Source: Sulfuriroseicoccus oceanibius
GTDB lineage: Bacteria; Verrucomicrobiota; Verrucomicrobiia; Verrucomicrobiales; SLCJ01
Reading direction: 5' to 3'
Assembly: GCF_010681825.2 (NCBI RefSeq)
Contig: NZ_CP066776.1
Location: 1,116,001-1,180,000 of the forward strand
Length of the DNA: 64,000 nt
Numbering within the stretch: position 1 is the stretch's first letter; every line of letters begins with the position of its first letter. The notes under the pieces are model-generated. The model saw nothing but the letters and a program-made list of their open reading frames with translations. It was not told the origin of the DNA and made no database searches. The position numbers and the translations under genes were made by a program. This document shows, piece after piece, positions 39,861-60,593 of this stretch.

Positions 39861-39888
39861 TGTTCACGTTTTGGCGATGGTGTGACGT
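39861..39888 (+). promoter_or_regulatory. Candidate ECF-type promoter of sigma1
   Basis: TGTTCACGTTT (39861-39871) and GACGT (39884-39888), 18 bases between CAC and CGT. It lies 15 bases before the sigma1 start. The arrangement matches the element upstream of sigma2 and of PEP-CTERM gene 1. ECF promoters typically have AAC in the -35 and CGT in the -10, so self-activation is inferred. The start codon would be very close to the transcription start. Confidence 0.55.
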
Positions 39889-39902
39889 GACCCAGTGCGT
39901 TT

Positions 39903-40439
39903 ATGTCCCCCGGTTCTGAACATCTCAGTGAATTCGTGCGCCTGCTGACCCGTCATCAGGCGGGTATTCGTGCGTTCATTGTGTCGCAGATGCCGGGTTT
40001 GCCTGGGGTTGCGGATGTGCTGCAGGATGTGAATGTGATTCTGTGGGAGAAGAAGGATAGCTTTGAATTGGGGACGAATTTCTCAGCCTGGGCGTTTAAG
40101 ATCGCGCGGTTCCAAGTGCTCAACCACCGGCGCAAACTGCAGCGGCAGGGCCATGTGACGCTGAGTGATGAAATGCTCGATCAATTGGCACAGGGGATGG
40201 AGGAGACGCTTGATTCCACAGAGATGCGTCTCGAGGCGTTGGAGTTTTGTTTGAACAAGTTGCAGCTACACCATCGGGAATTGGTTGAAGAGCGCTATCT
40301 CAGTGCCAGTTCGCTGGTGGAGTATGCGCGCCGGATCAACAGGCCCGTAGGTTCATTGCGCACGACGTTGAAGCGGCTGCGGGTGTCGCTGCGCAAGTGT
40401 GTGGATTCACAAGTTTCGTTGGAGGAAAAGAGGGTATGA
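39903..40439 (+). CDS. ECF-like sigma factor 1 (Rhodopirellula/Verrucomicrobium group)
   Basis: 178 residues with sigma region 2 (VADVLQDVNVILWEKKDSFE, then FSAWAFKIARFQVLNHRR) and region 4 (LQLHHRELVEERYLSASSLV to the helix-turn-helix NRPVGSLRTTLKRLRVSLRK). It belongs to the small sigma-70 group expanded in Planctomycetes and Verrucomicrobia. The stop codon overlaps the FecR-LamG1 start (ATGA at 40436), which implies a sigma/regulator pair. It closely resembles sigma2 at 48773 and less so sigma3. The predicted targets are its own operon and the PEP-CTERM gene at 45040, based on the shared upstream element. Confidence 0.93.
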   Translation: MSPGSEHLSEFVRLLTRHQAGIRAFIVSQMPGLPGVADVLQDVNVILWEKKDSFELGTNFSAWAFKIARFQVLNHRRKLQRQGHVTLSDEMLDQLAQGMEETLDSTEMRLEALEFCLNKLQLHHRELVEERYLSASSLVEYARRINRPVGSLRTTLKRLRVSLRKCVDSQVSLEEKRV

Positions 40440-41977
40440 ACCGGGAAAAGCTAGAGTCAGCCGTTTACGATCTGCTTGATGGTGTGTTGAACCAGGAGCA
40501 GGTGAACGAACTTGAGTGGGAGTTGGGGGCGAGTGAGGAGGCTCGGGAGATCTATCGTGAGGCCGTTAAGATGCATAGTGCGTTGGCTCTGCGTGGTGAG
40601 GGGCGTCGTCAGATGGGGCGGCCCGCATCAGTGGTGCCTATGGAGCGGGTGGTGCAGCGCCAGCGGCGCAAGATTGTGAGAATTGCAGCGGTGGCTGCGG
40701 CTGCGGTGATTGTGCTCGGGGCGGTGGTGATGCGGATGATCCACGTTCCTGTGGACGTCGAGCTCGCTGCGTTTGAGGTGTCGGTGGGGACTCGTTATGA
40801 GTTGGTGCATTCCAGCGGAGGCGGGCGTGTGGACGGGCTCAAGGCGGGGACAAGGATGACGATCTCGCAAGGTGTGGTGGAGCTGCAGTTTGATTCGGGC
40901 GTGCGCTCGGTGGTGCAGGCACCGGCAGATCTGACGTTGGTGGAGGAGGGGTTGGTGCGCTTGGATGAAGGGGTGGCGTGGTTCCATGTGCCCGAGGAGG
41001 CGGTTGGGTTCGAAGTGGTGGCGCGTGAGGTGACGGTGGTCGATTTGGGGACTGAATTCGGCGTGGTGACTGGGGGAGGCGTGCCGGATGAGGTGCATGT
41101 ATTTAAAGGGCGTGTGGCTGCGAGCTCGCGCTGGGCTGAGGGTTCTCCGGACGTCGAACTGGTGGCGAACGAGGCATGCCGGGTTGGTGATGCGGATGAA
41201 CTGGTGAGAGGGATCGCGGATGGGCGGGAATTTGCGACAAGCCTGCCAGATGGTCTGCCTTACCTTCATTGGTCATTTGATGGTGAGGATCAGCACCAGG
41301 TGGCTGGGACCTATGCGGCTGCCGCCCGACTGAAGGTGGTTGAGCAGAGAGGGGTTCGCGCCCCGTCGGTGGTGCCCGGGGTGGTGGGAAGCGGGCTGGC
41401 TTTCAATGGACAGCAGCAGGCGGTGGTGACCGATTGGCCTGGCTTGGCGGGCAACCGGGCGCGGACGGTGAGTTTCTGGGTGCGGATTCCTGAAGGATCT
41501 CCGCCGAATGGACTGGGGGGCATCGTGGGGTGGGGGGACCGTTCCCGTTACGGAGGAAAGTGGAAAGTGCTGGTAACCGGTGATGGGCGGCAGGATGAAG
41601 GTGGGCAGGTGGTGCGCGCGTCTTGGGGAGACTACTGGGTGGATAGCGACGTCGATGTGGCAGATGGCGAGTGGCATCATGTGGTGGTCACGACCACCGG
41701 TGAGTTGACTGCGACTGATGAATTGGATGTGGACGTCTATATCGATGGTCAGCGCTCGATGTTGAGATATGGCAACAAAGGGGGGCAAGGCGCACCTCCA
41801 GAGATGAGAACTGTGACCCGTTCCAAGACGTCGGTGCCTCTTGTGATGGGGGCGAGCCTTCTCCCGAATCCTCGCGATCGGGAATATTTCATTGGTGAAA
41901 TTGATGAACTCTACATCCACGCCGGGCATATGGATCAGGGCGAGGTTGGGGAGTTGTTATCCGCAGGGGCGCAGTAA
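40436..41977 (+). CDS. FecR-LamG membrane protein 1, probable anti-sigma sensor
   Basis: 513 residues. Residues 1-60 are helical and charged (DLLDGVLNQEQVNELEWELG), like the cytoplasmic part of anti-sigma factors but without zinc-finger cysteines. One membrane helix is at 81-99 (RIAAVAAAAVIVLGAVVM). A FecR domain follows at about 110-250 (RSVVQAPADLTLVEEGLVRL; VVDLGTEFGVV; DEVHVFKGRVAA). The last 230 residues are a LamG/concanavalin-like fold (RTVSFWVRIPEG; DGEWHHVVVTTTGEL; YFIGEIDELYIHAG). The orientation puts the lectin fold outside the cytoplasm. Inferred role: hold sigma1 until a polysaccharide is bound. Not a known FecA-type iron system, since no TonB receptor is near. Confidence 0.85.
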   Translation: MNREKLESAVYDLLDGVLNQEQVNELEWELGASEEAREIYREAVKMHSALALRGEGRRQMGRPASVVPMERVVQRQRRKIVRIAAVAAAAVIVLGAVVMRMIHVPVDVELAAFEVSVGTRYELVHSSGGGRVDGLKAGTRMTISQGVVELQFDSGVRSVVQAPADLTLVEEGLVRLDEGVAWFHVPEEAVGFEVVAREVTVVDLGTEFGVVTGGGVPDEVHVFKGRVAASSRWAEGSPDVELVANEACRVGDADELVRGIADGREFATSLPDGLPYLHWSFDGEDQHQVAGTYAAAARLKVVEQRGVRAPSVVPGVVGSGLAFNGQQQAVVTDWPGLAGNRARTVSFWVRIPEGSPPNGLGGIVGWGDRSRYGGKWKVLVTGDGRQDEGGQVVRASWGDYWVDSDVDVADGEWHHVVVTTTGELTATDELDVDVYIDGQRSMLRYGNKGGQGAPPEMRTVTRSKTSVPLVMGASLLPNPRDREYFIGEIDELYIHAGHMDQGEVGELLSAGAQ

Positions 41978-42010
41978 GTCCGCCTTTGGCAGGGGAGCCA
42001 AAAAGCATTT

Positions 42011-44764
42011 ATGAAGGGGCATCAAATTGTACATTTACTGGCGTTGATTGTGGCTGCTGTTCTTTGGCAGCCGATTTCAGCACGCTCTGCATCCTCGGTG
42101 ATCAACGTGGCTTGGAATCATACGAGCACCACAGTGACTGCTTTCGACTCTGAGCCCGACGGTGAGGTGGTGTCGGCAGGAAGCAATGGCTCGGCGTATT
42201 GGAACCAGATCCGGCAGGATGAACAGGGGGCGACGTTTGCTGATCTGGCGATGAAGTATTCCGATGGGTCGGACGCGCCCGTGACGGTGTCTGCAACCTC
42301 AGGTTACACGGGGCACAGCGGCGTTTCTTGGAGTGGCAAGGGGGATGATTTCGTGATGATGGACGGCTGGTATGGGTTCAAAGATGGTGAGAAGGTGGCA
42401 GTTTCCGGCGTGCCCGCGGAGTGGGCGGCGGATGGCTATTCCGTCGTGATTTACGGCGACTCGGACGCGGTCTCCCGAACGATGCGATACACGATCAATG
42501 GGGTGACCAAGACGATTGTCGACGCTGGCACGTTTGGAGGAACGTTTGTCGATGGGGGCAATCGGGTGGTGTTTGACGGGCTTAGCCAGACATCATTTGA
42601 GATCACGGGCAATGCGGATGGCACGCCGGGGCGATCGGCGATCAATGGTTTGCAGATCATTCGGGGTGGCCAGCAGCAAGAGCCTCAAGTGGGAGCGTTC
42701 GATGCCGACGATCTGTACGTTGGTGAGGGAGAATCGGTGGTTTTGAGTTGGCAGGTGACGGGAGCGGACTCAGTGACGATTACTCCCTGGCCGGGGGATG
42801 TGTCTTCGTTGACAGAAGGGGGAGGAGGTTCCGTCTCGGTGAGTGTGAATCAATCGACAACTTTCACCTTGGAGGCGGGCAATGCGCTGGGCTCGGTTTC
42901 CGAGAGTGTGACGGTTCACGTCGGGCCGGAGCGTCCGAATATCTTGCTCTTTTTGGTGGATGACATGGGCACGCAGGACACGTCTGAGCCGTTTCAGGTG
43001 AATGCCCAAGGGGAGGATGTGCCTACCGCACAGAATGCGTTGTACCGGACGCCGCAGATGACGCTGTTAGCAAACCAAGGGGTGAAGTTCACGAGTGCGT
43101 ATGCGATGCCAGTTTGTTCGCCGACCCGATGCAGCTTGATGAACGGGCAGAACTCCGTGCGCCATCATGTGACCAACTGGACGGCTCCGCGGGTGTCTCC
43201 GGACGGAGGCGGGGAAACCGGACAGAATCATGTCACCAGCCATAACTCACCTCGTGAATGGCGCCGTGCTGGGTTGGACACTTCGAAGCCGACGTTGCCA
43301 GCGCTGCTGAGTGGTGCCGGCTACCGCAGTATTCATGTGGGCAAGGGGCATTTTGGCAACGCGACGGATCACAATGCGGATCCTTTGCTGTGTGGATTTG
43401 ATGTGAACATCGGAGGTAAACAAATTGGCCAGCCTGGAAGCTATTTCGGAACGGCGAATTACGGGTCGGGCAACTTTCAGGTGCCACACTTGGAGGCCTA
43501 TCACGGGACGAATACCTTTCTCACCGAGGCGCTCACGCTGGAAATGAACCGTGCGATCGAGGGCGCAGTGAACGATGGGGTGCCGTTCTTTGCCTACATG
43601 AGCCACTATGCCCTACACGCCCCGTTTCATGAGGATCCTCGTTTTGCGGGCAACTATCCATCGCTCAGTGGTAGTAACGGGGCGTATGCCACGTTGATCG
43701 AGGGGATGGACAAGTCGCTTGGAGATATCCGGGCCAAGCTTGAGCAACTCGGAGTGGCTGAGGAGACGTTGGTGATCTTTCTTTCGGACAACGGGAGCGA
43801 CAACCCGATGGCCAATGCGTCGGCGCCATTGCGTGGCAAAAAAGGTCAGAAGTGGGAGGGCGGCTCGCGCGTGCCAATGATTGTTGCGTGGTCGAAGATT
43901 GATCCCAACAGCTCATTCCAGAGTCGGTTGAGTATCCCGGCAAACCGGCATGAGGACGATTTGGTGGCGGTGTTTGACCTGTTTCCAACCATTCTGAACA
44001 TAGCTGGGGTGGAGTACGATCAGCAGGTCGATGGTTATGATCTGCAGGAGTATTTCAAAGGGAATGCCGGAACGCACCGACCGCAGGAGTTGTTGATCCA
44101 TTTTCCGCATGACCACAATTCGGACTACTACACGTTGCTGCGAGTGGGGGAGTACAAGCTGATCTACACTTACCACACCGATACATTCGAGCTCTACAAT
44201 GTGGTGTCCGATATCGGTGAAAGCGTGGATCTGGCGGCGGCTGAGCCTGAAAGGGTAATGGAGATGGCGCGCAAGATGGCGCGACAGCTTGCTGAACATG
44301 GAGCGCAGTGGCCGACCTATGAAGCATCACCAACTGATATCGATGATCCACTGGTCATGCCGCAGATCGCCGGGGTGGATGTCGATCGCGATGGGATCGC
44401 CGATAATACCGAGGATGCCAATCAGAATGGGTTGGTGGATCCAGGTGAGACGGATCCGGATAATGACAACAGTGACGGGGATAATGTGCCGGATGGCGAG
44501 GAAGCCCGGATTGGGACCGATCCATTGGATGCTTCGAGTCGGTTTGATGTGGTGCCGGTAGTGCGCGGTGACGGGCAGCTTGAATTGAATTGGCCATCAG
44601 CCGCGGGAGCGAGTTTTACCATCCGTTCCAGCGGCGATTTGATCGACTGGAGTACGGTAGTGGCAGATTCCGTGCCGGCTGCGGGCGATGGGGCGTCGGC
44701 GACGACCTACGTGGTGGCTGGTAGCGAGGCTGACAGGGTGTTCTACCGTGTTGAGCTGGATTGA
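42011..44764 (+). CDS. Secreted multidomain sulfatase 1
   Basis: 917 residues. A signal peptide (about 1-27, cleavage after ARSA) precedes an N-terminal beta-rich domain (30-220). Then come an Ig-like domain (about 228-300), the sulfatase domain from RPNILLFLVDDMGTQDTSEP, a thrombospondin type 3-like calcium-binding stretch (DVDRDGIADNTEDANQNGLV, DPDNDNSDGDNVPDGEEA), and a beta-sandwich tail (TIRSSGDLIDWSTVVAD). The formylglycine site is CSPTR with Cys369; VDD and FLSDNGSDNP hold metal ligands. It needs a sulfatase-maturating enzyme, not present in the window. It is 33 bp downstream of FecR-LamG1. The substrate is a sulfate ester of unknown kind, probably algal polysaccharide. Confidence 0.92.
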   Translation: MKGHQIVHLLALIVAAVLWQPISARSASSVINVAWNHTSTTVTAFDSEPDGEVVSAGSNGSAYWNQIRQDEQGATFADLAMKYSDGSDAPVTVSATSGYTGHSGVSWSGKGDDFVMMDGWYGFKDGEKVAVSGVPAEWAADGYSVVIYGDSDAVSRTMRYTINGVTKTIVDAGTFGGTFVDGGNRVVFDGLSQTSFEITGNADGTPGRSAINGLQIIRGGQQQEPQVGAFDADDLYVGEGESVVLSWQVTGADSVTITPWPGDVSSLTEGGGGSVSVSVNQSTTFTLEAGNALGSVSESVTVHVGPERPNILLFLVDDMGTQDTSEPFQVNAQGEDVPTAQNALYRTPQMTLLANQGVKFTSAYAMPVCSPTRCSLMNGQNSVRHHVTNWTAPRVSPDGGGETGQNHVTSHNSPREWRRAGLDTSKPTLPALLSGAGYRSIHVGKGHFGNATDHNADPLLCGFDVNIGGKQIGQPGSYFGTANYGSGNFQVPHLEAYHGTNTFLTEALTLEMNRAIEGAVNDGVPFFAYMSHYALHAPFHEDPRFAGNYPSLSGSNGAYATLIEGMDKSLGDIRAKLEQLGVAEETLVIFLSDNGSDNPMANASAPLRGKKGQKWEGGSRVPMIVAWSKIDPNSSFQSRLSIPANRHEDDLVAVFDLFPTILNIAGVEYDQQVDGYDLQEYFKGNAGTHRPQELLIHFPHDHNSDYYTLLRVGEYKLIYTYHTDTFELYNVVSDIGESVDLAAAEPERVMEMARKMARQLAEHGAQWPTYEASPTDIDDPLVMPQIAGVDVDRDGIADNTEDANQNGLVDPGETDPDNDNSDGDNVPDGEEARIGTDPLDASSRFDVVPVVRGDGQLELNWPSAAGASFTIRSSGDLIDWSTVVADSVPAAGDGASATTYVVAGSEADRVFYRVELD

Positions 44765-44818
44765 TTTGAAATGAAGGCGGAGTCCTCTGCTGCCGCGTGG
44801 TGTTGCAGAGATCACTTT

Positions 44819-44854
44819 GCGCCGGTTCTCGGATGAGAGGGCTGGCGCTTTTTT
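44819..44854 (+). terminator. Rho-independent terminator after sulfatase 1
   Basis: GCGCCGGTTCTC (44819-44830) pairs with GAGAGGGCTGGCGC (44835-44848) through G-C, G-U and A-U pairs, followed by TTTTTT. It separates sulfatase 1 from the independently promoted PEP-CTERM gene. Confidence 0.82.
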
Positions 44855-44879
44855 GTGAGGAGGGGAGGAGCGAGAAAAG

Positions 44880-44906
44880 TGATAACGTTTATTGCCGGGG
44901 AGACGT
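44880..44906 (+). promoter_or_regulatory. Candidate ECF-type promoter of PEP-CTERM gene 1
   Basis: TGATAACGTTT (44880-44890) and GACGT (44902-44906), 17 bases between AAC and CGT, identical in spacing to the sigma2 element. It lies 25 bases beyond a terminator and about 134 bases upstream of the start codon, leaving a long 5' leader. The match suggests that the sigma factor driving the cassettes also drives this gene separately. Confidence 0.6.
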
Positions 44907-45039
44907 CACGCTGCGCCAGCATGTCCTCTTCCCCTGGGTATCAGTGAGAAATTGCCGTCGTTCCGACCGTGGGTCGGGCGGTGCAAGGAGGAGGCGGTTG
45001 GTAGATTCCATTAACGAAAACACTAACTGATACAAATAT

Positions 45040-45789
45040 ATGAAAAAAACTCCATTCCTCGTAGGAGCTGCGTTGGCTGTCTCTTTGGCCGGTGCAAGCG
45101 CTGTAACCACCGTGATCGACTTCGGGCTTGCAGGTACGACTTCGTTTCCAGTGACTGTTAACCAGTTCGCCGAGAGCAATGCCTCAAACTCCGTGAATAA
45201 CCTGACACTCAATACGATCGCCGGTGTGGACAGCGGAATCCGCTTTTCGACCAGCGATGTCTGGAGCGCGGGCGCTGGCGGTTCGTTCAGCCCGGCGGGA
45301 TCCGGCAGCTATGATGGTGGAAGTTCCGTTGTGGATGGCTGGATCAGCAACGAGCAGGCTGCATATGGCGACATTTGGCAAGGCTTGGTCAATGCGACGA
45401 ATCCTCTCACCACCGGCCAAGCTCTGACCATGACATTCTCTGGTCTTGAGGCGAATACAGAGTACACATTCAAGTTGTTGAGTGCTCGGGCGAATGCCTA
45501 TGGCACAGGCTTCGACGGAACCTACTCCATGACTTATGGCGTGGACTCCCTCGCGGGTGGCGGATCGCATGACATGGGTGGTTCTGGCGCGGGGCTCAAT
45601 GCGACTGAATACACTTGGACATTCACCACCGGAGATACAGCTGAGAATGCGGTGATTGATTTGTCCGGATCGTGGAACCTGAACGCGGTGACCATTGATT
45701 CTGTGGCGGTGGCTGCGGTGCCCGAGCCGTCTTCAACTGCTCTTCTTGGTGTGAGTGGTCTTGCGTTGATCTTGCGCCGTCGGCGTTAG
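45040..45789 (+). CDS. PEP-CTERM protein 1
   Basis: 249 residues. A signal peptide (KKTPFLVGAALAVSLAGASA) is followed by a beta-rich Gly/Ser/Thr body and the PEP-CTERM tail: VPEPSSTALLGVSGLALILR followed by RRR. Such proteins are cut and anchored or exported by an exosortase, usually in EPS-producing Gram-negatives. The body contains LTMTFSGLEANTEYTFKLLS, reminiscent of PEP-CTERM beta-sandwich domains. It has its own promoter-like element and a hairpin downstream, and lies between sulfatases 1 and 2. It may be a surface or matrix protein co-regulated with polysaccharide breakdown. Confidence 0.9.
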   Translation: MKKTPFLVGAALAVSLAGASAVTTVIDFGLAGTTSFPVTVNQFAESNASNSVNNLTLNTIAGVDSGIRFSTSDVWSAGAGGSFSPAGSGSYDGGSSVVDGWISNEQAAYGDIWQGLVNATNPLTTGQALTMTFSGLEANTEYTFKLLSARANAYGTGFDGTYSMTYGVDSLAGGGSHDMGGSGAGLNATEYTWTFTTGDTAENAVIDLSGSWNLNAVTIDSVAVAAVPEPSSTALLGVSGLALILRRRR

Positions 45790-45842
45790 GTGATGTTGCT
45801 TCCCGGTTTGGTCTAGGATATCCGGGGAGCTTCTATATTCCG

Positions 45843-45870
45843 CCTGGAGGGCGTTGATTCGCCCTCCAGG
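45843..45870 (+). terminator. Hairpin after PEP-CTERM gene 1, probable terminator
   Basis: A perfect 11-bp stem, CCTGGAGGGCG (45843-45853) with CGCCCTCCAGG (45860-45870), and loop TTGATT. Only TT follows, so termination would be weak or factor-assisted; sulfatase 2, starting 42 bases on, may be reached by read-through. Confidence 0.6.
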
Positions 45871-45912
45871 TTGGATCTGGATTGTGGATTCGAGTGCTTG
45901 GGTTGTTGGTTT

Positions 45913-48684
45913 ATGAAAGTGGCAAATTGGAGCCGGGTCGCGTTGGTGATTGCGCTGGTGTTTGGTAGGTCGGCTCTGTGCGCCGATGTGATCAGTGTGA
46001 ATTTTGAGCAAGGCGGCCAGAGCTCCGGGGACGAGTTGGGCGCCGCTGTGGAAGCGGGTGTGGTGCCCGTGGCGCAGTGGAACAATCTCAATGTGGGGGC
46101 GATCGGTGTGCATGGCGTGGCGTTGGCGCCAACGGCGGTGAAAGATCGAACCGGTGTGGAGACATCAGCGACGGTAGCGGTGGATCTGGCCAGTGCGTAC
46201 GTAGGTGAGTCTGGCTCCGGAGGAGGTTCGCCGGATCGTGTGATGATGGCATCGTATGTTTCGTGGGACCCTGTGGATGGTGTGGCTCCCGAGGACTCGG
46301 GAGGGGTGACGGTGGCGGGTTTGCCATCGGATTTCACCGATTCGGGGTATTCGGTTTACGTCTATTTTGATGCGGATGTGAACGACCGTACTTTTGATAT
46401 TGGAGTTGCGGGCATGAGTGTCCGTGGTGCGGATAGTTCGACATTTGCAGGTGTTTTCAAGAATGCGGCGTCGTCGCCGGGAGATGCGAACTGCGCGGTT
46501 TTTTCGGGGCTGAATGCATCCGGCTTTGTGATCTCAATGAACTCGGATTCGGGGCGTGCCGCTCTCAACGGCTTTCAGATTGTGGCGAATACCTACCAAC
46601 CGGCACCTGCGATCACGTCGTTTGTGGCGGATGATTATTACGTGGAGCCGGGCGGTGCGGTGACGCTGCGCTGGGAGACCTCGGGTGCGACCAGCTTGAG
46701 TATTGCGCCTGATGCTGGGGATGTGTTGGCTGGTTCTAGTGACGGGGTGGGTGAGGTTCGGGTTACGGTGCCTGACGAGACGACGACGTATATCTTGACG
46801 GCCTCCAGCGGGGGAGGTGCTGTGACATCCAGAGTTCGGGTCGGGGTTGGGCCGGCGCGGCCGAACATCGTTTTGTTCCTTGTGGACGACATGGGAACGC
46901 AGGATACGTCGGAGCCATTCGTGGTGGATGAGGCTGGAAATGATGTGCCGACCGCGATGAATCAATTGTACCGGACTCCGGCGATGAGGAGTCTGGCGGA
47001 TCAGGGGATGAAATTCACCAATGCGTATGCCATGCCGGTTTGTTCGCCTACGCGCTGTAGTCTCATGAACGGGCAAAACTCAGTGCGGCATCATGTGACC
47101 AACTGGACGGGGAGGGATGTCTCGCCATCGGGCGGCGGGGAGACTGGGTTCAACTCCTCCGCCAGTCATAACTCTCCGCGTGATTGGCGGAGGATGGGGC
47201 TGGACGTGAGCCAGAGTACGCTGCCGGCGTTGCTTAGCGGTGCCGGTTATCGGACGATTCACGTGGGCAAAGGGCACTTCGGAAATGCCTTTAGCAACAT
47301 GGATCCGGCGGACTGTGGGTTTGATATCAACATCGGTGGAACCCAGATCGGGCAACCGGGGAGCTATTACGGCAATCAAAACTATGGGTCTGGAAACATG
47401 CAGGTGCCCCATTTGGAGGCGTATCATGGGACCTCCACGTTTTTGACGGAGGCGCTGACCGTGGAGATGAACAAGGCGATCGAGGCGTCGGTTCGGGACG
47501 GTGTGCCGTTTTTCGCCTACATGTCTCATTATGCGGTGCACCAGCCGTATGACGAGGACTCCAGGTTTGCTGGAAACTACCCCGGCTTGAGCGGGTTTGA
47601 CCGGGCGTACGCGACCTTGATCGAGGGGATGGACAAGTCGCTCGGGGATATAATGACGAAGCTCAATGAGCTAGGGGTTGCCGAGGACACATTGGTCATC
47701 TTCCTGTCGGATAATGGAAGTGATAACCCAAACAAAGCGGCGTCGGCTCCGCTGCGGGGGTACAAGGGGACGAAATGGGAGGGCGGCTCACGGGTGCCGA
47801 TGATCGTAGGGTGGGCGAAGATTGATGCGGGCAACCCATTTCAGGCGGAGTTGAGTATTCCGGTGGATCGCTACGAAGATGATATTGTGACGGTATTTGA
47901 CCTGTATCCGACCGTACTCGGGGTGGCGGGTGTGGGGCGTGGAGACCAGGTTGTCGATGGCTATGATCTGCGGGAGTACTTCAAAGGGGTGCCCGGGCAG
48001 CACCGGCCGCAGGAGTTGTTAATTCACTTTCCGCATGACCACGCTTCGGATTACTACACGTTTTTGAGGCAGGGGGACTACAAGTTGATCTACCACTATG
48101 TGGATGACCGCTATGAGCTCTACCATCTTGGCGATGACTTGGGGGAGACGGTCAATTTGGCGGCAGCCGAGCCCGAGCGGGTGGTGCGGATGGCGCGGCG
48201 GATGGCGCAGATGCTCAATGAGCATGGTGCGCAGTGGCCGACTTTTGACCGATCTCCGGATGATGTGGATGATCCGTTTGCGATGCCTCTTGTGGTGGGT
48301 GTTGATTTGGATGCCGACGGGCTTGACGACCGGGAGGAGGATGCGAATGGAAATGGGCTGGTGGACCCGGGGGAGACCAACCCGGATCTGGACAATAGCG
48401 ACGGGGATAACGTTGGCGATGGGGATGAGGTGAAGCTGGGGACCGATCCTTTGGATGCGTCGAGTCGCTTTGAGGTGGTGCCTGCGTTGATGTCGGACGG
48501 CACATTGGAGCTCGTTTGGCCCTCCCGGCCGGGAACTACGTTTACGATCCGATCGAGCTTTGATTTGAAGGATTGGAGCACGGTGGTTGCTGCTGCAGTG
48601 CCCGCTTCGGAGGGGCGGGTTACACGGTTCAACTTGGGGCGGATGGACGGGGCTCAGGCCTTTTTCAGAACGGAGCTCGAGTGA
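45913..48684 (+). CDS. Secreted multidomain sulfatase 2
   Basis: 923 residues from ATG 45913 (signal peptide VANWSRVALVIALVFGRSAL, cleavage near CADV). The layout is the same as sulfatase 1: an N-terminal beta domain, an Ig-like domain (SFVADDYYVEPGGAVTLRWE), the sulfatase domain from RPNIVLFLVDDMGTQDTSEP with formylglycine site CSPTR at Cys377, and FLSDNGSDNP. A calcium-binding DLDADGLDDREEDANGNGLV stretch and a TIRSSFDLKDWSTVV tail follow. The GAGYRTIHVGKGHFGNAFSN region also matches sulfatase 1, so it is a recent paralogue. It has no obvious promoter element of its own. Confidence 0.92.
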   Translation: MKVANWSRVALVIALVFGRSALCADVISVNFEQGGQSSGDELGAAVEAGVVPVAQWNNLNVGAIGVHGVALAPTAVKDRTGVETSATVAVDLASAYVGESGSGGGSPDRVMMASYVSWDPVDGVAPEDSGGVTVAGLPSDFTDSGYSVYVYFDADVNDRTFDIGVAGMSVRGADSSTFAGVFKNAASSPGDANCAVFSGLNASGFVISMNSDSGRAALNGFQIVANTYQPAPAITSFVADDYYVEPGGAVTLRWETSGATSLSIAPDAGDVLAGSSDGVGEVRVTVPDETTTYILTASSGGGAVTSRVRVGVGPARPNIVLFLVDDMGTQDTSEPFVVDEAGNDVPTAMNQLYRTPAMRSLADQGMKFTNAYAMPVCSPTRCSLMNGQNSVRHHVTNWTGRDVSPSGGGETGFNSSASHNSPRDWRRMGLDVSQSTLPALLSGAGYRTIHVGKGHFGNAFSNMDPADCGFDINIGGTQIGQPGSYYGNQNYGSGNMQVPHLEAYHGTSTFLTEALTVEMNKAIEASVRDGVPFFAYMSHYAVHQPYDEDSRFAGNYPGLSGFDRAYATLIEGMDKSLGDIMTKLNELGVAEDTLVIFLSDNGSDNPNKAASAPLRGYKGTKWEGGSRVPMIVGWAKIDAGNPFQAELSIPVDRYEDDIVTVFDLYPTVLGVAGVGRGDQVVDGYDLREYFKGVPGQHRPQELLIHFPHDHASDYYTFLRQGDYKLIYHYVDDRYELYHLGDDLGETVNLAAAEPERVVRMARRMAQMLNEHGAQWPTFDRSPDDVDDPFAMPLVVGVDLDADGLDDREEDANGNGLVDPGETNPDLDNSDGDNVGDGDEVKLGTDPLDASSRFEVVPALMSDGTLELVWPSRPGTTFTIRSSFDLKDWSTVVAAAVPASEGRVTRFNLGRMDGAQAFFRTELE

Positions 48685-48730
48685 CGGGCGACGGTGGATT
48701 GCCTGACGATGCGTTTTTTCTGAGGAAATA

Positions 48731-48757
48731 TGATAACGTTTGCAGGCGGGTCGACGT
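48731..48757 (+). promoter_or_regulatory. Candidate ECF-type promoter of sigma2
   Basis: TGATAACGTTT (48731-48741) and GACGT (48753-48757), with 17 bases between AAC and CGT, 16 bases before the sigma2 start. Its 11-base upstream half is identical to the one at 44880. Confidence 0.6.
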
Positions 48758-48772
48758 GCCCACGGAGCCATC

Positions 48773-49309
48773 ATGTCGTCATCTCCTGAACATTTCCGCG
48801 AGTTCGTAAGTCTGCTGACCAGTCATCAGTCGGCGCTTCGTGGGTTTATCGTGTCTCTTCTGCCTGGGCTTCCGGGGGCATCCGATGTGCTGCAGGATGT
48901 GAACGTCATCCTTTGGGAGAAACGTGCCGCGTTTGAGATCGGGAGTAATTTTCGTGCGTGGGCGTTTAAGATCGCACGTTACGAGACCCTGAACTACCGC
49001 CGCAGGCTGCAGCGGGACGGTGTGGAGATGCTCAACCCTGAGCTGATTGACCTGATGGCCGCGGAGTATGAACGGCGCCCCGAGCTTACGGAGAGGCGAC
49101 TTGAGGCTCTGCAGCATTGTCTGGAGGGCTTGCAGCCGCAGCATCGCGAGTTGATCGAAGGGCGCTATATGAGTGCGTCCTCGTTGGTCGATTATGCGGC
49201 GAGGGTGGGGCGTTCGGCCGGTGGCCTGCGGGTGGCATTGCATCGGTTGCGTGCGTCGTTGCGCAAGTGCGTGGAGTCGAAATTGGTGGTTGCTGAGAGT
49301 CGCGTATGA
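48773..49309 (+). CDS. ECF-like sigma factor 2
   Basis: 178 residues from ATG 48773 (SSSPEHFREFVSLLTSHQSA). Region 2 (SDVLQDVNVILWEKRAAFEI, NFRAWAFKIARYETLNYRR) and region 4 (LQPQHRELIEGRYMSASSLV, RVGRSAGGLRVALHRLRASL) are complete. It is very like sigma1, including the SASSLV turn before the helix-turn-helix, so the two arose by duplication. The stop overlaps the start of FecR-LamG2 (ATGA at 49306). No terminator separates it from sulfatase 2, so it may also be reached by transcription from cassette A. Confidence 0.93.
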   Translation: MSSSPEHFREFVSLLTSHQSALRGFIVSLLPGLPGASDVLQDVNVILWEKRAAFEIGSNFRAWAFKIARYETLNYRRRLQRDGVEMLNPELIDLMAAEYERRPELTERRLEALQHCLEGLQPQHRELIEGRYMSASSLVDYAARVGRSAGGLRVALHRLRASLRKCVESKLVVAESRV

Positions 49310-50853
49310 ACCTTGAAGAATTAGAATTGTTGGTGGGTGATCTGCTGGACGGCAGCCTGTCGGGCGAGAAGCGAGCGGAGTTGGAGGCTGCATTGATGGC
49401 GAGCCCTGAGGCGCGTGAGCGATTCAGTGAATTGCTTCAATTGCACAACGCGATGGAGATTCATACTGAAGGACTTCCTTCTGCGAAATGGGGGCGTGCT
49501 GTGATTCCTGTAGAACGTGTGATGAGGCGTCAGCGGCGCAAGATTATGCGAATTGCGGTCATGGCTGCTGCTGCGGTGATTGTCCTTGGGGCGGTGGTGA
49601 TGCGCATGATCCACGTGCCGCACGCGGCCGAGCTTGCTGGGTTTGAGGTGGCGCGTGGGACACGTTTTGAGGTGACGCATGCGGTGGATCGGGCGAACCC
49701 GACGGGTGGCGCATTGCATGCGGGATCCCGGATGGTGATTTCGCAGGGGGCGGTGGAGTTGAAATTCGAGTCTGGCGTTCGTTCGGTGGTGCAGGCTCCG
49801 GCTGACCTGACATTGGATGCCGAAGGTGTGGTGAGTTTGGACGAAGGGGTGGCCTGGTTCCATGTACCGGCGGATGCTGTCGGGTTTGAGGTGGTTGCGC
49901 GGGAGGTGAGAATCGTGGATCTGGGGACGGAATTTGGCGTGGTTTCCAGCGGGATGGTCGCGGATGAGGTGCATGTGTTCGATGGGCGGGTGGCTGTGAC
50001 CCACCTCTGGGGAGGCGATTCCACGCGGCGTGAGCTGGTTGCCGGTGAGGCGGTGAGGGCAACCGATGAGGAGGAGCTAGAAGCACAGGCCACGGATAGA
50101 AGTCGTTTTACCTCGGTCTTGCCGGATGGACTGCCGTATTTGCACTGGTCGTTCGACGGGGCGGATCCGTTCCAAGTGCGTGGCACCTACAATGCGGTAT
50201 CGCGGATCAAGACGGGCGATGTCGCTGGGCTCAGTAATCCGGAGTTGGTGCCGGGGGTGGTGGGCAATGCCGTGGTATTCAACGGAGAACGTCAGGCGTT
50301 GGTGACCAACTGGCCCGGGTTCACCGGGAAGCGGGCGCGGACGGTGAGCTTTTGGATGCGATTGCCGGCGGGTGTCGGGCAATCGGGGCTTAATGGCATC
50401 GTAGGCTGGGGGGATCCCGAGTTGTACGGTGGGAAGTGGAAGGTGTTGGTATGTGATGGAGAGGAGGCTGATTCCCAGGTGGTGCGGGTTTCGTGGGGGG
50501 CTCACTGGGCGGATGGCAGCATCGATGTAAATGATGGTGAGTGGCATCATGTCGTGGTGACCACGACGGGCCAAGTGGATGCGGCCGGGCACTTGGATAT
50601 CGCAGTGTATGTCGACGGGGTGCGTGACGCGCATCGGTTCGAGGGGACAGAAGAGAGCGGTCCGGTGCATGAGATGCGCACGGGATCGCGAACCCAGGCC
50701 GCGCAGCCGCTGATGTTTGGTTCCAGCCTGCAGTCACGCATTGAAGATCGCTTCTTCTTTAAAGGCGAGATCGACGAGTTGTTCATCCATGCGGGGCATG
50801 TCACCGCTGAGGAGGTGGCGCGCATGCGAGAACTCTCCGGGGCTCAAAACTAG
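49306..50853 (+). CDS. FecR-LamG membrane protein 2, probable anti-sigma sensor
   Basis: 515 residues with the same plan as FecR-LamG1. A charged helical N-terminus (DLLDGSLSGEKRAELEAALM) is followed by a membrane helix at 81-99 (MRIAVMAAAAVIVLGAVVM) preceded by RRQRRK. The FecR domain (SVVQAPADLTLDAEGVVSLD; IVDLGTEFGVVSSG) and the LamG-like C-terminus (RTVSFWMRLPAG; DGEWHHVVVTTTGQVDAAG; FFKGEIDELFIHAG) follow. The membrane segment is almost identical to that of FecR-LamG1, while the lectin parts differ more, as expected if each sees a different ligand. Partner: sigma2 by overlap. It is 9 bp from sulfatase 3. Confidence 0.85.
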   Translation: MNLEELELLVGDLLDGSLSGEKRAELEAALMASPEARERFSELLQLHNAMEIHTEGLPSAKWGRAVIPVERVMRRQRRKIMRIAVMAAAAVIVLGAVVMRMIHVPHAAELAGFEVARGTRFEVTHAVDRANPTGGALHAGSRMVISQGAVELKFESGVRSVVQAPADLTLDAEGVVSLDEGVAWFHVPADAVGFEVVAREVRIVDLGTEFGVVSSGMVADEVHVFDGRVAVTHLWGGDSTRRELVAGEAVRATDEEELEAQATDRSRFTSVLPDGLPYLHWSFDGADPFQVRGTYNAVSRIKTGDVAGLSNPELVPGVVGNAVVFNGERQALVTNWPGFTGKRARTVSFWMRLPAGVGQSGLNGIVGWGDPELYGGKWKVLVCDGEEADSQVVRVSWGAHWADGSIDVNDGEWHHVVVTTTGQVDAAGHLDIAVYVDGVRDAHRFEGTEESGPVHEMRTGSRTQAAQPLMFGSSLQSRIEDRFFFKGEIDELFIHAGHVTAEEVARMRELSGAQN

Positions 50854-50862
50854 GATCACAAG

Positions 50863-53583
50863 ATGATGAGATATGTTGTTTCCGCGGCCTTGTGGCTGCT
50901 CGCGCAAGGTGGTGTGCTTGCTGGTTCTTCCGTGTTGATGGATTTTGGCACCGTGCAGGGAGCTGCCGGTGGGAATTGGAACCATTTGGGAGCGGGGACC
51001 TCGTTGGCCGATCTGGTGGACAGCTCGGGGACGGCGACCACGATCGATCTAACGCTGCGTTTTCATGGATCGGGGGCGGGCTATGGCGGTGGGGCCTTCA
51101 ATAGCGAGGATCCCGGAGCTCCCGAGCCATTCAATGTGAAGAATGCTTATGCCGACGGCTTGTATAGCAACAACCACACCGAGGCTGGTATTGATATTAC
51201 TTTGAGCGAACTGGCTCCGAACACATCATACACCATCACTTTCTACGGTGGGCGCAATGATGGTAACTGGAGTGACGCGGATGTTACCGTAGTGGTAGGC
51301 TCGGGAGATGGAGGGAAAGTGACGCACCGCGCGGCGTGTTCCTTTGTGGTCACTTCGGATTCCTCTGGGGGGATTCGGCTGAACTTTGTGGACGATGGGA
51401 GCAATGTCTCGTCGGGGGCGAATGCGACCCTGGCGGCAATGAGTATTGAGGAAGTGCCGAACTTACTCCCGACGATCGGGGAGTTTTTGGCAGATGATTA
51501 TTATGTCGCAGCGGGTGACGCGGTGACGCTGGAGTGGCGGAGTGACAAGGCGACGTCACTGGTGATCGACCAAGGGGTGGGGGATGTGACGGGCGTTGGC
51601 GTGGATGGGAGCGGTAGCTTTACGGTGAACGTGGAGCAGACCACGACGTACACGCTCACGGCGGCCAACGACGAGGGGGCGGTGACTGAGAGTGTGCGCG
51701 TGGTGGTAGGGGACCCACGGCCGAACATTTTGTTCTTTTTGGTGGATGATATGGGGTGGCAGGACACGTCGGTGCCGTTTCATTACGATGGCTCGGGCAA
51801 CCCGGTGCGAGGGGTTTACAACGATCGTTACCGTACGCCGTCCATGGAAACGCTGGCAGCCCAGGGGCGGAAGTTTACCAATGCGTATGCTTACTCCATC
51901 TGTTCGCCGACGCGGGTGTCTATCATGACAGGGATGCATGCGGCGCGGCATCATGTGACGACGTGGACGCATCCTGAGACGCCACAGCACACGGGGGGCA
52001 ATTCGGTGGCGCATCTCGACTCCCCGGCTGACTGGCGGATGGCGGGAATGGATGCGGCGGATATTCCGTTGCCCAAAATGCTGAAACAGGCTGGATACCG
52101 CACGATTCACGCGGGGAAGGCGCATTTCGGACCCAATAGCGAACCGTCCGGGGACCCTCGTTTTCTTGGTTTTGATGTGAACATTGCAGGTCACGGAGCC
52201 GGCGGGCCGGGATCGTATCTCGGATCGCAAAACTTCTCGGGCACATGGCGCGGAGCTCCGGCGTTCTGGGATGTCCCCGGACTCGATCAGTATCACATAG
52301 GCAATTATGGGCAGGAGGTATTCCTCACCGAGGCGCTGACTCTGGAGATGAACCGTGAAATCGAACGGGCGGTCGCAGACGGGGTGCCGTTCTTCGCCTA
52401 CATGAGTCACTATGCGGTGCACGTGCCGTGGACCAATGACGAACGTTTTACCGCCAACTACGATGGCAGTGAGCCCGGCGAGCCGAACCTGGGCGGGCAG
52501 GAGTTGGCCTTCGCTACCATTGTGGAAGGGGTGGACAAGTCGTTGGGCGATATCATGGCCAGGCTGGAGCAGCTAGGGGTCGCGGATGATACCTTGGTGA
52601 TCTTCTACTCTGACAATGGTAGTGACCTGCGGGATGGACGGGAGGAATCTGTGCTTCGCGGGTACAAGGGAACCAAGTGGGAAGGTGCGTTCCGTGTGCC
52701 GTTTATCGTGGGATGGGCGAAACTGGATGGGACCAATTCTTTCCAGCAGGCATTGCCCATCCCCGCCAACACAAGGGACGAGCGCGTTATTAATTGTGAG
52801 GATATGTTTTCCACGGTGGCTGCGGTGGCAGGAGTCGCCTATGACCATGATGTGGACGGATATGATTTGAGCCCGTATTTCCGCGGGGTGGAAGGAGAGC
52901 TGCGTCCCCAGCAATTCATCCAGCATTTCCCCCACGGGCATGGATCGGATCATTTTGTGGTGATGCGGCAAGGGGATTGGAAGATTATCCACGAGTATTC
53001 CAATGGGACGACCCAGCTTTTCAACCTGGCCGATGATGTTGGCGAGGCTACTGATGTGGCGGACCAGCACCCGGAGTTGGTGATGTCCATGACTCGTCAC
53101 TTGATCCAGGAGTTGGAGCGGTATGGCGCCCAATACTCAAGGAATGTGGATACAGGGGGTGAAATACCTCCGAAGTTACCCAACCTGCCGGCGGTGGATG
53201 TGGATGAGGATGGAGTGGCCGACCTGACCGAGGACGCCAACCAGAATGGGTTGGTCGATCCGGGGGAGACAGATCCTGATAACGATAATACCGACGGCGA
53301 CAATGTGCCGGATGGAGATGAAGCCCGCTTGGGAACCGACCCGCTGGATGCGGCCAGTCGCTTCGATGTGCTGCCGATACGACATGCGGATGGAAGCATC
53401 GAGCTTCGATGGCCGTCTGCGCCCGGAGCAACCTTTACCATTCGCAGCAGTCACGATCTGAGCGACTGGTCTACCGTGGTGGCGGATGCGGTGCCTGCGG
53501 CTGGCGCGGGTGCGGTTGAGACTTCGTATGTGTTCGCCGCGGGCGAGTCAGGTCGGAGGTTTTTTCAGGTCGAACTTAACTAG
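50863..53583 (+). CDS. Secreted multidomain sulfatase 3
   Basis: 906 residues. A signal peptide (about 1-21) precedes an N-terminal domain with the GAGTSLADLVDSSGTATTID type of start. Then come an Ig-like domain (EFLADDYYVAAGDAVTLEWR), the sulfatase domain (RPNILFFLVDDMGWQDTSVP) with formylglycine site CSPTR at Cys347, FYSDNGSDLRD, and the TSP3-like (DVDEDGVADLTEDANQNGLV, DPDNDNTDGDNVPDGDEA) and beta-sandwich tail. It diverges from sulfatases 1 and 2 in the substrate-facing region (TIHAGKAHFGPNSEPSG; GTWRGAPAFWDVPGLDQYHI), so it may remove another sulfate ester. It probably shares a transcript with sigma2, FecR-LamG2 and the alpha-galactosidase. Confidence 0.92.
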   Translation: MMRYVVSAALWLLAQGGVLAGSSVLMDFGTVQGAAGGNWNHLGAGTSLADLVDSSGTATTIDLTLRFHGSGAGYGGGAFNSEDPGAPEPFNVKNAYADGLYSNNHTEAGIDITLSELAPNTSYTITFYGGRNDGNWSDADVTVVVGSGDGGKVTHRAACSFVVTSDSSGGIRLNFVDDGSNVSSGANATLAAMSIEEVPNLLPTIGEFLADDYYVAAGDAVTLEWRSDKATSLVIDQGVGDVTGVGVDGSGSFTVNVEQTTTYTLTAANDEGAVTESVRVVVGDPRPNILFFLVDDMGWQDTSVPFHYDGSGNPVRGVYNDRYRTPSMETLAAQGRKFTNAYAYSICSPTRVSIMTGMHAARHHVTTWTHPETPQHTGGNSVAHLDSPADWRMAGMDAADIPLPKMLKQAGYRTIHAGKAHFGPNSEPSGDPRFLGFDVNIAGHGAGGPGSYLGSQNFSGTWRGAPAFWDVPGLDQYHIGNYGQEVFLTEALTLEMNREIERAVADGVPFFAYMSHYAVHVPWTNDERFTANYDGSEPGEPNLGGQELAFATIVEGVDKSLGDIMARLEQLGVADDTLVIFYSDNGSDLRDGREESVLRGYKGTKWEGAFRVPFIVGWAKLDGTNSFQQALPIPANTRDERVINCEDMFSTVAAVAGVAYDHDVDGYDLSPYFRGVEGELRPQQFIQHFPHGHGSDHFVVMRQGDWKIIHEYSNGTTQLFNLADDVGEATDVADQHPELVMSMTRHLIQELERYGAQYSRNVDTGGEIPPKLPNLPAVDVDEDGVADLTEDANQNGLVDPGETDPDNDNTDGDNVPDGDEARLGTDPLDAASRFDVLPIRHADGSIELRWPSAPGATFTIRSSHDLSDWSTVVADAVPAAGAGAVETSYVFAAGESGRRFFQVELN

Positions 53584-53627
53584 AGTGCGATAGGATGTGT
53601 TTCTGTGAGTTCTGTTAGATTTGAGTG

Positions 53628-55673
53628 ATGCGATTCAGGTGGGTTTGCTTTCTGTTGGGGCTGGCGGCCAATGTCTGCCTGGCAGGCGAGATTGATGTGC
53701 GCCAGTTTGATGGGGCAGGGGTGCTGGAGGCTCAGGTGGTATCAGCCAAGCCTGATGGGAGAGGGCTGATCGAGCGAGATGTACTGCTCTTGCCGGACTA
53801 CGAGGCCGGGATTTTCTATGCACCTTACACCGACGGCCGTGCGGCGATTGGCAACCGCTTTCTCGGAGTGGCATTCACGGATATGGACCATCTCGCGCAG
53901 CGGCGCGCTGAGCTCAAGACCGGACGGGCGATCGCCGATGCAGATCTTGGTTCGTTTCTTTGTTTGAAGTTAGAGGATAGGCGTTATCTCGCGCTGCTGG
54001 CACTAGCGGGTGAGGGGGCGTTCTCGTCGTTTACGTTCCGTGACCAATCGCTGTGGGTGGATGCGGGCACGTTTGGCACGGCGGAATACTCTGGCTGGCT
54101 GCCAAAGCTGGCTTATGCGCATGGGAGCACGCCGCACGAGGCGAGCCTTGCGGTGTGGAAGGCGGCTCTTGCGTCGCAGAGTGTGAACCATTCGGCGCGG
54201 ATGCGGGGGGAGAAGCGGTTTCCCGAGCCATTCCGGTATCCTGGGTATTGCACGTGGGAACACCTGCGCCGTGACCTCAGTGACGGGAGGTTGGCCGGAA
54301 CGATGAAGAAGATGGCGGATCACCCCGTGGCGTTTCGGTGGTTGTTGGTCGATGACGGGTATGAACACCACCGGGACGAGGGGTTGTTGGGTTTTGCTCC
54401 GGATCCGGAAAAGTTTCCGCATGGGTTTGCGCCGCTGCAAAAGCTCAAGGAGGAGACTGGCATCCGCTGGCTGGGAGCGTGGTGGTATATGGGTGGTTAT
54501 TTTGCAGGAGTGTCGCCTAGCCACGGAATCGCGGAGTACCATGGGATCTTGGAGGAGGGCCGGGATGCGGTTGGTGGGTTGGTGCCGCGGATGAATCAGG
54601 AGGCGGCAGATGAGTTTTATGGTGCCCGGGCCCTTGCGATGGCGCGGGATGGGATTGATTTCATCAAGGTGGACTTCCAGACGAAGTACTTCCGCGATCA
54701 CCTTGGGGGGGCGAACCCGGTGCAGGCGTTCAGTTACTATCACCGGGGACTTGAAAAGGCGTTTGAGGAGAACTTTTCAGCCCTGATCAACTGCATAGCC
54801 CAACATCACCTGCATGTGATGAAGCATCGGATGAGTTCAACGATCCGCTTCAGCATGGATTTCAACAAGCATGACGAGGAGCACAATGCGTTGATCACCG
54901 TCCAAAGTCTGCGCAATTCGCTTTATCTCGGGCATGTGCATTGGGGGGACTACGACATGTTTCTGACGTCCAACCGCTCGGGGAGGTTGATGGCCGAGAT
55001 CCGGGCGATCGCGGGGAGTCCGTTGTATGTTTCTGAGGCGATTGATGCGGTGAAGGCGGATGTTTTGCTGCCGGCGGTTTGGAGCGATGGGGAAGTGTTG
55101 CGACCATTGGCGCCGGCGACATTGACTCCGGATGGGTTCTTTGGTTGCCTGGACCGGATGCCATTGCGTGCGGTGGCTCCGCTGCCTGGGGAGGTTGCTA
55201 CATTCTGGCTCGCCAATGTGTGGCGTGATGATCCGATGCAGGTGGAGCTTAGCCCTGCAGATTACGGGTTTGGCGGGATGATGATGCAGCCTTATGAGGG
55301 GCTGTGGCAACAACCGGAAGAGGGGCTGGTGGCGTATGAGTGGAAGACCGGCAAGGCGTGGAAGATGCAAGGTGAGTACAAGGTTTCACTTGCCCGTTGG
55401 GAGTCGAGTATCGTGCATTTGGTTCCGGTGCGCCACGGATGGGCTGTGCTCGGGCGGCCTGACAAGTATCTCGCGCCGGCGGCGTGCCGAGTGGTCGAGC
55501 AGAGCACCGAACGGCTCAAGCTTGAGGTCCGGGAGGGAGGGCCGCTTTTGATTTGGTCCGAGCGCGGGGTGCCCAAGCTGGAGGGCAGAGCGATGCGTGA
55601 AGTGAGTGAGCACCTGTACCGTGCGGATTTGGAAAGCGGCGGATCCGATGTGGTTGTGACGGTGGATCGGTAG
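53628..55673 (+). CDS. GH36 Sip1-type alpha-galactosidase (raffinose synthase/seed imbibition protein family)
   Basis: 681 residues from ATG 53628. A signal peptide (RFRWVCFLLGLAANVCLA) indicates export. The catalytic barrel matches the Sip1/raffinose synthase branch: FRYPGYCTWEHLRRDLSDGR, VAFRWLLVDDGYEHHRDEGL, and the nucleophile region DFIKVDFQTKYFRDH with Asp349. LYLGHVHWGDYDMFLTSNRS and AIAGSPLYVSEAIDAVKADV follow. A C-terminal beta-sandwich ends the protein. In bacteria this family acts on alpha-galactosides. Placed 44 bp after sulfatase 3, it suggests a sulfated alpha-galactoside-containing glycan as the cassette B substrate. Confidence 0.88.
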   Translation: MRFRWVCFLLGLAANVCLAGEIDVRQFDGAGVLEAQVVSAKPDGRGLIERDVLLLPDYEAGIFYAPYTDGRAAIGNRFLGVAFTDMDHLAQRRAELKTGRAIADADLGSFLCLKLEDRRYLALLALAGEGAFSSFTFRDQSLWVDAGTFGTAEYSGWLPKLAYAHGSTPHEASLAVWKAALASQSVNHSARMRGEKRFPEPFRYPGYCTWEHLRRDLSDGRLAGTMKKMADHPVAFRWLLVDDGYEHHRDEGLLGFAPDPEKFPHGFAPLQKLKEETGIRWLGAWWYMGGYFAGVSPSHGIAEYHGILEEGRDAVGGLVPRMNQEAADEFYGARALAMARDGIDFIKVDFQTKYFRDHLGGANPVQAFSYYHRGLEKAFEENFSALINCIAQHHLHVMKHRMSSTIRFSMDFNKHDEEHNALITVQSLRNSLYLGHVHWGDYDMFLTSNRSGRLMAEIRAIAGSPLYVSEAIDAVKADVLLPAVWSDGEVLRPLAPATLTPDGFFGCLDRMPLRAVAPLPGEVATFWLANVWRDDPMQVELSPADYGFGGMMMQPYEGLWQQPEEGLVAYEWKTGKAWKMQGEYKVSLARWESSIVHLVPVRHGWAVLGRPDKYLAPAACRVVEQSTERLKLEVREGGPLLIWSERGVPKLEGRAMREVSEHLYRADLESGGSDVVVTVDR

Positions 55674-55845
55674 GATCTCGTCGGCTGGCGGGCATGGTGA
55701 TGGGATGCGTCGGCTCTGCGGTGCGGGCGTATAATTCGGGTGGAAACGTCCGGCGTTGGTGGCGGGGCGTAATGCTTTGAGCGCCCTGGGATGTGAGCAT
55801 GTGAGGCGGAGGATGTGAGAAATGTGAAAATTTTCTAAGAAAATC

Positions 55846-55872
55846 TGATCACGTTTTCGGGGCGACTTTCAT
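55846..55872 (+). promoter_or_regulatory. Partial ECF-type element upstream of sigma3
   Basis: TGATCACGTTT (55846-55856) matches the -35-like half of the other elements, preceded by an A/T-rich run. The GACGT half is not present at the expected distance (a GAC at 55864-55866 is too close), so the promoter of cassette C may be recognised differently. It starts 41 bases before the sigma3 start codon. Confidence 0.4.
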
Positions 55873-55886
55873 CACTGCATGACCCC

Positions 55887-58782: not shown

Positions 58783-59239
58783 GGCAAGGTGTGCATTTAT
58801 TTGTGCATGTTTGTGGAAGGCGGGCGGGACGGCGGTGCGTAGTACGCGCTGCTTATGAAGGTGATATCGTTTCTGATTTTGGTTTGGTTGCAGTGTGCTT
58901 CGCTATGGGCTGCGGAGGTGGACGTGTATTTGATGGCGGGGCAGTCGAACATGCAGGGATTGGGAAAGGTGGACCAACTTTCACCACAGCGGATCGATCG
59001 GGTACAGCACTGTTACTATTGGAACGGAAGCGCATTCGAAGTGCTGATCCCCGGTGAGACGAAGACCTCGCGATCGGTGGCAGAGTTCGGACCGGAGTTG
59101 GGCTTTGCCAGCGTGATGGCTACCAGCGAACGTCCGGTCTACCTTGTGAAGTATTTTGCCAGTGGAATGCCATTGCACCATGGATGGCACGGAGGGACGT
59201 GGCTTGGGGGACCAGCTGTGCCCGGCAGGACAAATTTCT

Positions 59240-59247
59240 ACCCCGGG
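59240..59247 (+). repeat. Target site duplication, left copy
   Basis: ACCCCGGG immediately before the IS; the identical copy is at 60586-60593. Removing one copy plus the IS restores the reading frame of the esterase. Confidence 0.88.
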
Positions 59248-60585: not shown

Positions 60586-60593
60586 ACCCCGGG
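60586..60593 (+). repeat. Target site duplication, right copy
   Basis: ACCCCGGG immediately after the IS, identical to 59240-59247. Confidence 0.88.

Follow-up and report, generated by a model that had tools for sequence, protein, structure and literature searches.

In the stretch of Sulfuriroseicoccus oceanibius DNA analysed here (64,000 nucleotides, hereafter the window), three genes for ECF sigma factors are each preceded by a similar pair of short boxes, and such a pair also lies upstream of a gene for a PEP-CTERM protein. What are these boxes for, and which genes does each sigma factor control? The reading favoured here, to which a probability of about 0.78 may be attached, is that the two-box element is a promoter read by ECF sigma factors of the family TIGR02989; that each of these drives its own operon as well as neighbouring units for PEP-CTERM proteins and glycan enzymes; and that the boxes form dialects that are mostly private to one locus. 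This reading is built on observations made directly in the DNA, namely the motif itself, its position, its linkage to PEP-CTERM genes, the matching of dialects, and conservation confined to the boxes.

All three sigma factors belong to TIGR02989 (Sig-70_gvs1), with scores of 158.7 (sigma1), 158.1 (sigma2) and 152 bits (sigma3) against a curated cut-off of 124.55 bits; the 3.50-Mb genome contains eight such genes above this cut-off. The cassettes, elements and PEP-CTERM genes of the window lie on the forward strand. The gene for sigma1 (39903–40439) is overlapped by that for anti-sigma candidate 1 (40397–41977) and followed by sulfatase 1 (42011–44764) and a terminator-like hairpin (44819–44848) at the end of the operon. 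PEP-CTERM protein 1 (45040–45789) and sulfatase 2 (45871–48684; 60% identical to sulfatase 1) precede the second cassette, which consists of sigma2 (48773–49309), the overlapping anti-sigma candidate 2 (49306–50853) and sulfatase 3 (50863–53583); no element was found upstream of sulfatase 3 that would mark it as a separate unit. The third cassette comprises sigma3 (55887–56426), the overlapping anti-sigma candidate 3 (56423–57943) and, 40 nt 3' of the latter, PEP-CTERM protein 2 (57984–58703). No element of its own was found upstream of PEP-CTERM 2, which is probably read from the sigma3 operon. Each anti-sigma candidate has a hydrophobic, presumably membrane-spanning segment. Candidates 1 and 2, the two examined for domains, both contain FecR-like and LamG-like domains; the anti-sigma and FecR matches are weak, with the FecR match of candidate 1 below the Pfam cut-off, and candidate 2 has a weakly zf-HC2-like N-terminus. 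Candidate 3 is approximately 30% identical to the other two. Beyond this cassette, a gene resembling carbohydrate esterases (SASA-type, by eye; 58855–61076) is apparently interrupted by a transposase open reading frame (59331–60539; IS256-like, by eye), leaving a first part at 58855–59283 and a last part at 60636–61076.

The element is exact at two of its four sites in the window. Upstream of PEP-CTERM 1 (44880–44908) and of sigma2 (48731–48759), TGATAACGTTT is found with AAC-N17-CGT, as the first-pass annotation had described. The sigma1 site (39861–39891; TGTTCACGTTT) does have the 18-base spacing ascribed to it, but its −35 core is CAC rather than AAC (CAC-N18-CGT). At sigma3 (55846–55874), only a match to the first half had been reported; the site is instead a complete variant, TGATCACGTTT, with CAC-N17-CAT, since the 17-base spacing leads to a CAT, the −10 core usual for sigma gene promoters among relatives. 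At sigma3, too, the −35 core is CAC rather than AAC. In all four cases, the −10 core lies 14–15 nt before an ATG (14 nt before that of sigma1 at 39903); the ATG in question at the PEP-CTERM 1 site is a remnant one (44921), whereas the PEP-CTERM gene itself starts at 45040.

A one-mismatch search of the window gave four matches against 0.5 expected, a number reached in 1 of 100 shuffled versions; a further match at 58862 was judged to be due to chance because it sits within the start of a coding sequence. Genome-wide numbers come from pattern searches and selected stretches rather than from a full matrix scan: the strict pattern TGATAACGTTT-N11-GACGT has two matches in 3.5 Mb, before sigma2 and PEP-CTERM 1 (reversed control: none), and TGATNACGTTT-N10-13-CGT likewise has two matches in the genome, both inside the window (reversed control: none). 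The first half alone is weak, with 23 genome matches versus 11 for its control. The sigma2/PEP-CTERM 1 pair of elements is far from chance, but scanning with this exact consensus is unable to uncover a regulon.

A broader view is provided by relatives. An alignment query yielded 80 relatives with flanking DNA, and a two-block motif search covered 102 upstream regions, all taken from genomes other than that of S. oceanibius. It recovered GTTAACCTTT and GGCATTT, in short GTTAAC and CAT, with 16–18 nt (mostly 17) from AAC to CAT, in about three-quarters of the sequences (log-likelihood 530 versus approximately 60 for shuffled sequences). The motif extends to Planctomycetota, e.g. Rhodopirellula and Pan216. 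When the matrix from relatives is applied to the S. oceanibius genome, its best match falls at −40/−41 from the ATG for sigma1, sigma2, sigma3 and the sigma gene of the 3051k locus; the scores at sigma1 and sigma3 are weak, with the position right. Because a matrix learned from relatives alone matches these same positions, the element most probably serves as promoter for the sigma operons, with a complete variant at sigma3. The strict consensus of the relatives, TGTTAACCTTT-N10-GGCATTT, has one match in the S. oceanibius genome, no better than the control; the dialects of this genome have diverged. Within the flanks of the relatives, 42 matrix sites of at least 18 bits were found, mostly at sigma gene starts, compared to none with column-permuted matrices. 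Matrix sites also precede PEP-CTERM genes at three of the relatives' loci (L090, L091, L129), and in a genus-mate (G001, locus L153) the element accompanies two PEP-CTERM genes that adjoin a sigma gene. At four further loci (L074, L084, L097, L131), strong copies of the motif (19–25 bits) lie 51–63 nt before exported cytochrome-like genes (PSCyt1/DUF1549 type, named by eye from a CxxCH-containing start), which suggests a two-promoter layout beside the sigma cassette with another kind of target.

The association between PEP-CTERM genes and these sigma factors goes beyond the window. Of the 41 S. oceanibius genes with a PEP-CTERM sorting signal over the cut-off, 18 have a TIGR02989 sigma gene no more than 6 kb away, whereas 20,000 random placements gave 1.0 on average and never more than 12; all eight sigma genes have at least one PEP-CTERM neighbour within this distance. 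A different large exported enzyme is found at each of the sigma loci L220, L222, L223 and L224: an alpha-L-fucosidase with F5/8C, a NAGLU enzyme, an M12-like metallopeptidase with cadherin, and a sulfatase with PA14 and LamG. Elsewhere, a tandem run of five PEP-CTERM genes (L225, C1:3412–3417k) has neither a nearby TIGR02989 sigma gene nor a detectable element, and an adjacent gene looks like a GntR-type regulator. The only good exosortase candidate (C1:852341–853078) reaches 105.1 bits, compared to the EpsH TIGR02602 cut-off of 105.55.

Most sigma loci appear to have their own version of the element, which is readable for five of the eight sigma genes. At the 799k locus, GTTAACG-N14-TCCAT precedes the sigma gene, three PEP-CTERM genes, the alpha-L-fucosidase gene and a gene for a SpoIIE-type phosphatase. 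At the 3251k locus, where the sigma factor has an altered region 4.2 helix, GTAATAC-N15-CAT precedes the sigma gene, two PEP-CTERM genes and a sulfatase gene. Both search patterns were chosen after their sites had been seen; with that proviso, all six genome matches of GTTAACG..TCCAT (also written GTTAACG..GTCCAT) fall at the 799k locus, and four of the five matches of GTAATAC-N15-CAT at the 3251k locus (control: none). The 3051k locus has GTTAACG..CGAAATAG before its sigma gene and one PEP-CTERM gene; sites of related sequence precede another PEP-CTERM gene and the gene for a large cadherin/metallopeptidase protein. Within the window, GATAACGTTT..GACGT is common to sigma2 and PEP-CTERM 1, and the promoters of sigma1 and sigma2 share GWTMACGTTT..GACGT.

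Some sites lie in trans: the sigma1 form, GTTCATGTTT-N12-GACGTGA, is found at a PEP-CTERM gene located 262 kb away, near C1:1418.1k, and the 3051k form at another, at 3191.9k. In addition, a 3051k-like element, GTTAACGG..GGGAATAG, is located 190 nt before the gene for an exported 445-aa protein (L228; C1:336222, minus strand), which is possibly a further distant target of a dialect of this type. Genome matches at C1:3335711 and C1:2089026 were set aside as chance, being antisense within long open reading frames. The pairing of sigma and PEP-CTERM genes is repeated in relatives with other boxes: GTAACGTT..GGACTATGG (L095), GCTAACCCT..CACAT (L117), GAAACG..GGCAT (L124) and GCTAACCT..GCATT (L151). 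Many PEP-CTERM genes in the flanks of relatives have no cognate site. For two of the eight S. oceanibius sigma genes, those of the 1756k and 2792k loci, neither inspection by eye nor the matrix gave a readable shared element; each locus has four PEP-CTERM neighbours, and their sigma factors differ in the region 4.2 helix.

The unit of PEP-CTERM 1 and sulfatase 2 seems to have a history of its own. The hairpin after sulfatase 1 is followed by the element, an ATG at the distance typical of the sigma genes, and a short reading frame (44921–44947) encoding MSSSPGYQ and a stop. The protein sigma2 begins with MSSSPEHFR, and the Ser codons of the two differ by three changes, all of them synonymous. 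No sigma-70-type promoter was found between 44700 and 45100. Apparently, a cassette was duplicated, and this copy lost its sigma and anti-sigma genes but kept the promoter. Such a loss is the simplest account; a short leader peptide at 44921 is less likely. PEP-CTERM 1, previously described as an independent gene under sigma control, is less independent than that, its promoter, ATG and MSSSP codons seemingly being the remains of a duplicated sigma gene; having kept the promoter without the sigma gene, it would at present depend on sigma2 or sigma1 acting in trans.

This remnant raises the question of whether shared boxes in general are by-products of duplication, i.e. upstream DNA inherited from sigma genes and under no sigma control. 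Near-copies of the upstream regions of pepC and the fucosidase gene at the 799k locus point the same way, as does the distant 1418k PEP-CTERM gene, which resembles sigma1 also directly 3' of the −10 box. Against this stands the pattern of conservation. Within loci, −35 boxes are 94% and −10 boxes 80% identical, while spacers (36%) and flanks (32–37%) are near background; the sites were picked for having boxes, so the contrast with the spacers is informative only by its size. Boxes that are nearly identical between background-level spacers and flanks speak for selection having preserved the boxes, and against recent copying. With the recurrence of the pairing among relatives that use different box sequences, this makes duplication without control an unlikely explanation. 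The boxes might also bind a repressor or an activator other than a sigma factor; in principle, the pair could represent the halves of an operator. They are not inverted repeats, however; their AAC and CGT/CAT cores with 15–18 nt spacing are those of an ECF-like promoter, they lie 14–15 nt before the ATG at sigma genes, and they track the neighbouring sigma gene's own promoter, so that this alternative is the least credible of those considered.

It is also conceivable that each sigma factor tolerates the differences between boxes, and that all the sigma factors drive a common set of PEP-CTERM genes. All boxes do follow a common ECF pattern (GTTAAC-like, 15–18 nt, CAT/CGT-like), and the promoters of sigma1 and sigma2 hardly differ. 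This possibility was addressed by comparing PEP-CTERM upstream regions, and one from the fucosidase gene, with the sigma promoter of their own locus while permuting the locus labels. The mean cognate match was 12.1 versus 10.4 for permuted labels, and none of 20,000 permutations was as good; the same holds for relatives alone (0 of 20,000). Within S. oceanibius, cognate boxes fit significantly better than those of the other sigma genes, the true assignment being the best of 5,040 permutations, and random windows from the same loci gave no such effect. The dialects were first spotted by eye and tested afterwards, which the label-swap test covers. With two of the dialects almost restricted to one locus each, and the altered helix of the 3251k sigma factor, a common regulon is improbable, about as much so as inheritance by duplication.

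Covariation between sigma factors and boxes was examined for 71 sigma factors that have confident sites. Residue 153 (in the numbering of sigma2; it lies within the region 4.2 helix) and the base after AAC covary more strongly than any other residue/base pair: Lys153 occurs with C in 52 cases and Arg153 with G in 12, with few exceptions. On the tree, this reflects mainly one old split and one clean nested switch (L077). These two independent switches both agree, and are too few for significance; the covariation is thus only suggestive, a lead rather than proof.

Taken together, these data can be cast as a model, in which inference supplies the recognition of each promoter by its cognate sigma factor, the points at which transcription begins, the action of the anti-sigma and the external signal. 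A membrane anti-sigma candidate with FecR-/LamG-like domains, encoded beside each TIGR02989 sigma gene, would let go of its sigma factor in response to an external signal, possibly a glycan, as the sulfatases, fucosidase and NAGLU enzyme at sigma loci hint (the NAGLU locus is one of those whose element could not be read). The freed sigma factor would activate its own operon through the promoter approximately 41 nt before the ATG, giving short leaders with 14–15 nt between −10 core and ATG, and the neighbouring PEP-CTERM and glycan-enzyme units through their own copies of the −35 and −10 boxes. Both halves of the original proposal of sigma control find support in comparative sequence data: a family-wide, apparently autoregulatory ECF-type motif precedes the sigma genes, and PEP-CTERM genes carry the element in S. 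oceanibius and in relatives. The suggestion of overlapping regulons survives in reduced form. It is plausible for sigma1 and sigma2, which are duplicates (60% identical) with nearly the same dialect and might cross-activate, but not in general; since boxes form private dialects at the readable loci, regulons would be mostly local and insulated. A bolder version, whose chances are evenly balanced, is that one genome operates several insulated ECF channels side by side, with dialects co-evolving with the region 4.2 helix (Lys153 with AACC, Arg153 with AACG), each controlling a set of PEP-CTERM proteins and a glycan enzyme and sensing through a LamG anti-sigma factor. If true, PEP-CTERM genes of Verrucomicrobiota would generally be controlled in this way, and the channels would supply natural orthogonal sigma/promoter pairs.

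A literature search, which covered few subscription papers, found no paper linking ECF or anti-sigma factors to PEP-CTERM; the motif itself may have been predicted earlier in ECF classification work. Classical ECF modules combine AAC/CGT boxes with autoregulation and an anti-sigma factor that is transcribed together with the sigma gene (PMC8103513). The modules described here resemble them in the AAC-type −35 and CGT-type −10 boxes, the apparently self-promoted sigma gene and the adjacent membrane anti-sigma candidate, but differ in the presence of several paralogues per genome with separate box dialects, in outlying PEP-CTERM and glycan-enzyme targets, and in CAT as the usual −10 core of relatives. 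Control of PEP-CTERM genes by sigma-54 and PrsK-PrsR was described by Haft et al. in 2006 (PMC1569441), with a motif reported only in Proteobacteria, leaving control in other phyla unexplained. In both systems, a common element lies upstream of many PEP-CTERM genes, which mostly form separate transcription units; here, the element is ECF-type rather than −24/−12, and the putative controllers are neighbouring ECF sigma factors. For Verrucomicrobiota, the proposed answer is thus a neighbouring ECF sigma factor with a readable promoter, by which the regulons of a sigma family that is large and little studied would become predictable from sequence, surface-protein genes would be tied to glycan enzymes, and natural, possibly mutually insulated sigma/promoter pairs are indicated.

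A further parallel lies in the polysaccharide utilisation loci of Bacteroidota, where ECF sigma/anti-sigma pairs, many in parallel, are found beside glycan-degrading genes. The S. oceanibius loci share this arrangement of parallel pairs adjoining glycan-degrading genes; unlike those of Bacteroidota, they combine LamG-like anti-sigma candidates with outputs that comprise PEP-CTERM proteins, sulfatases and a fucosidase.
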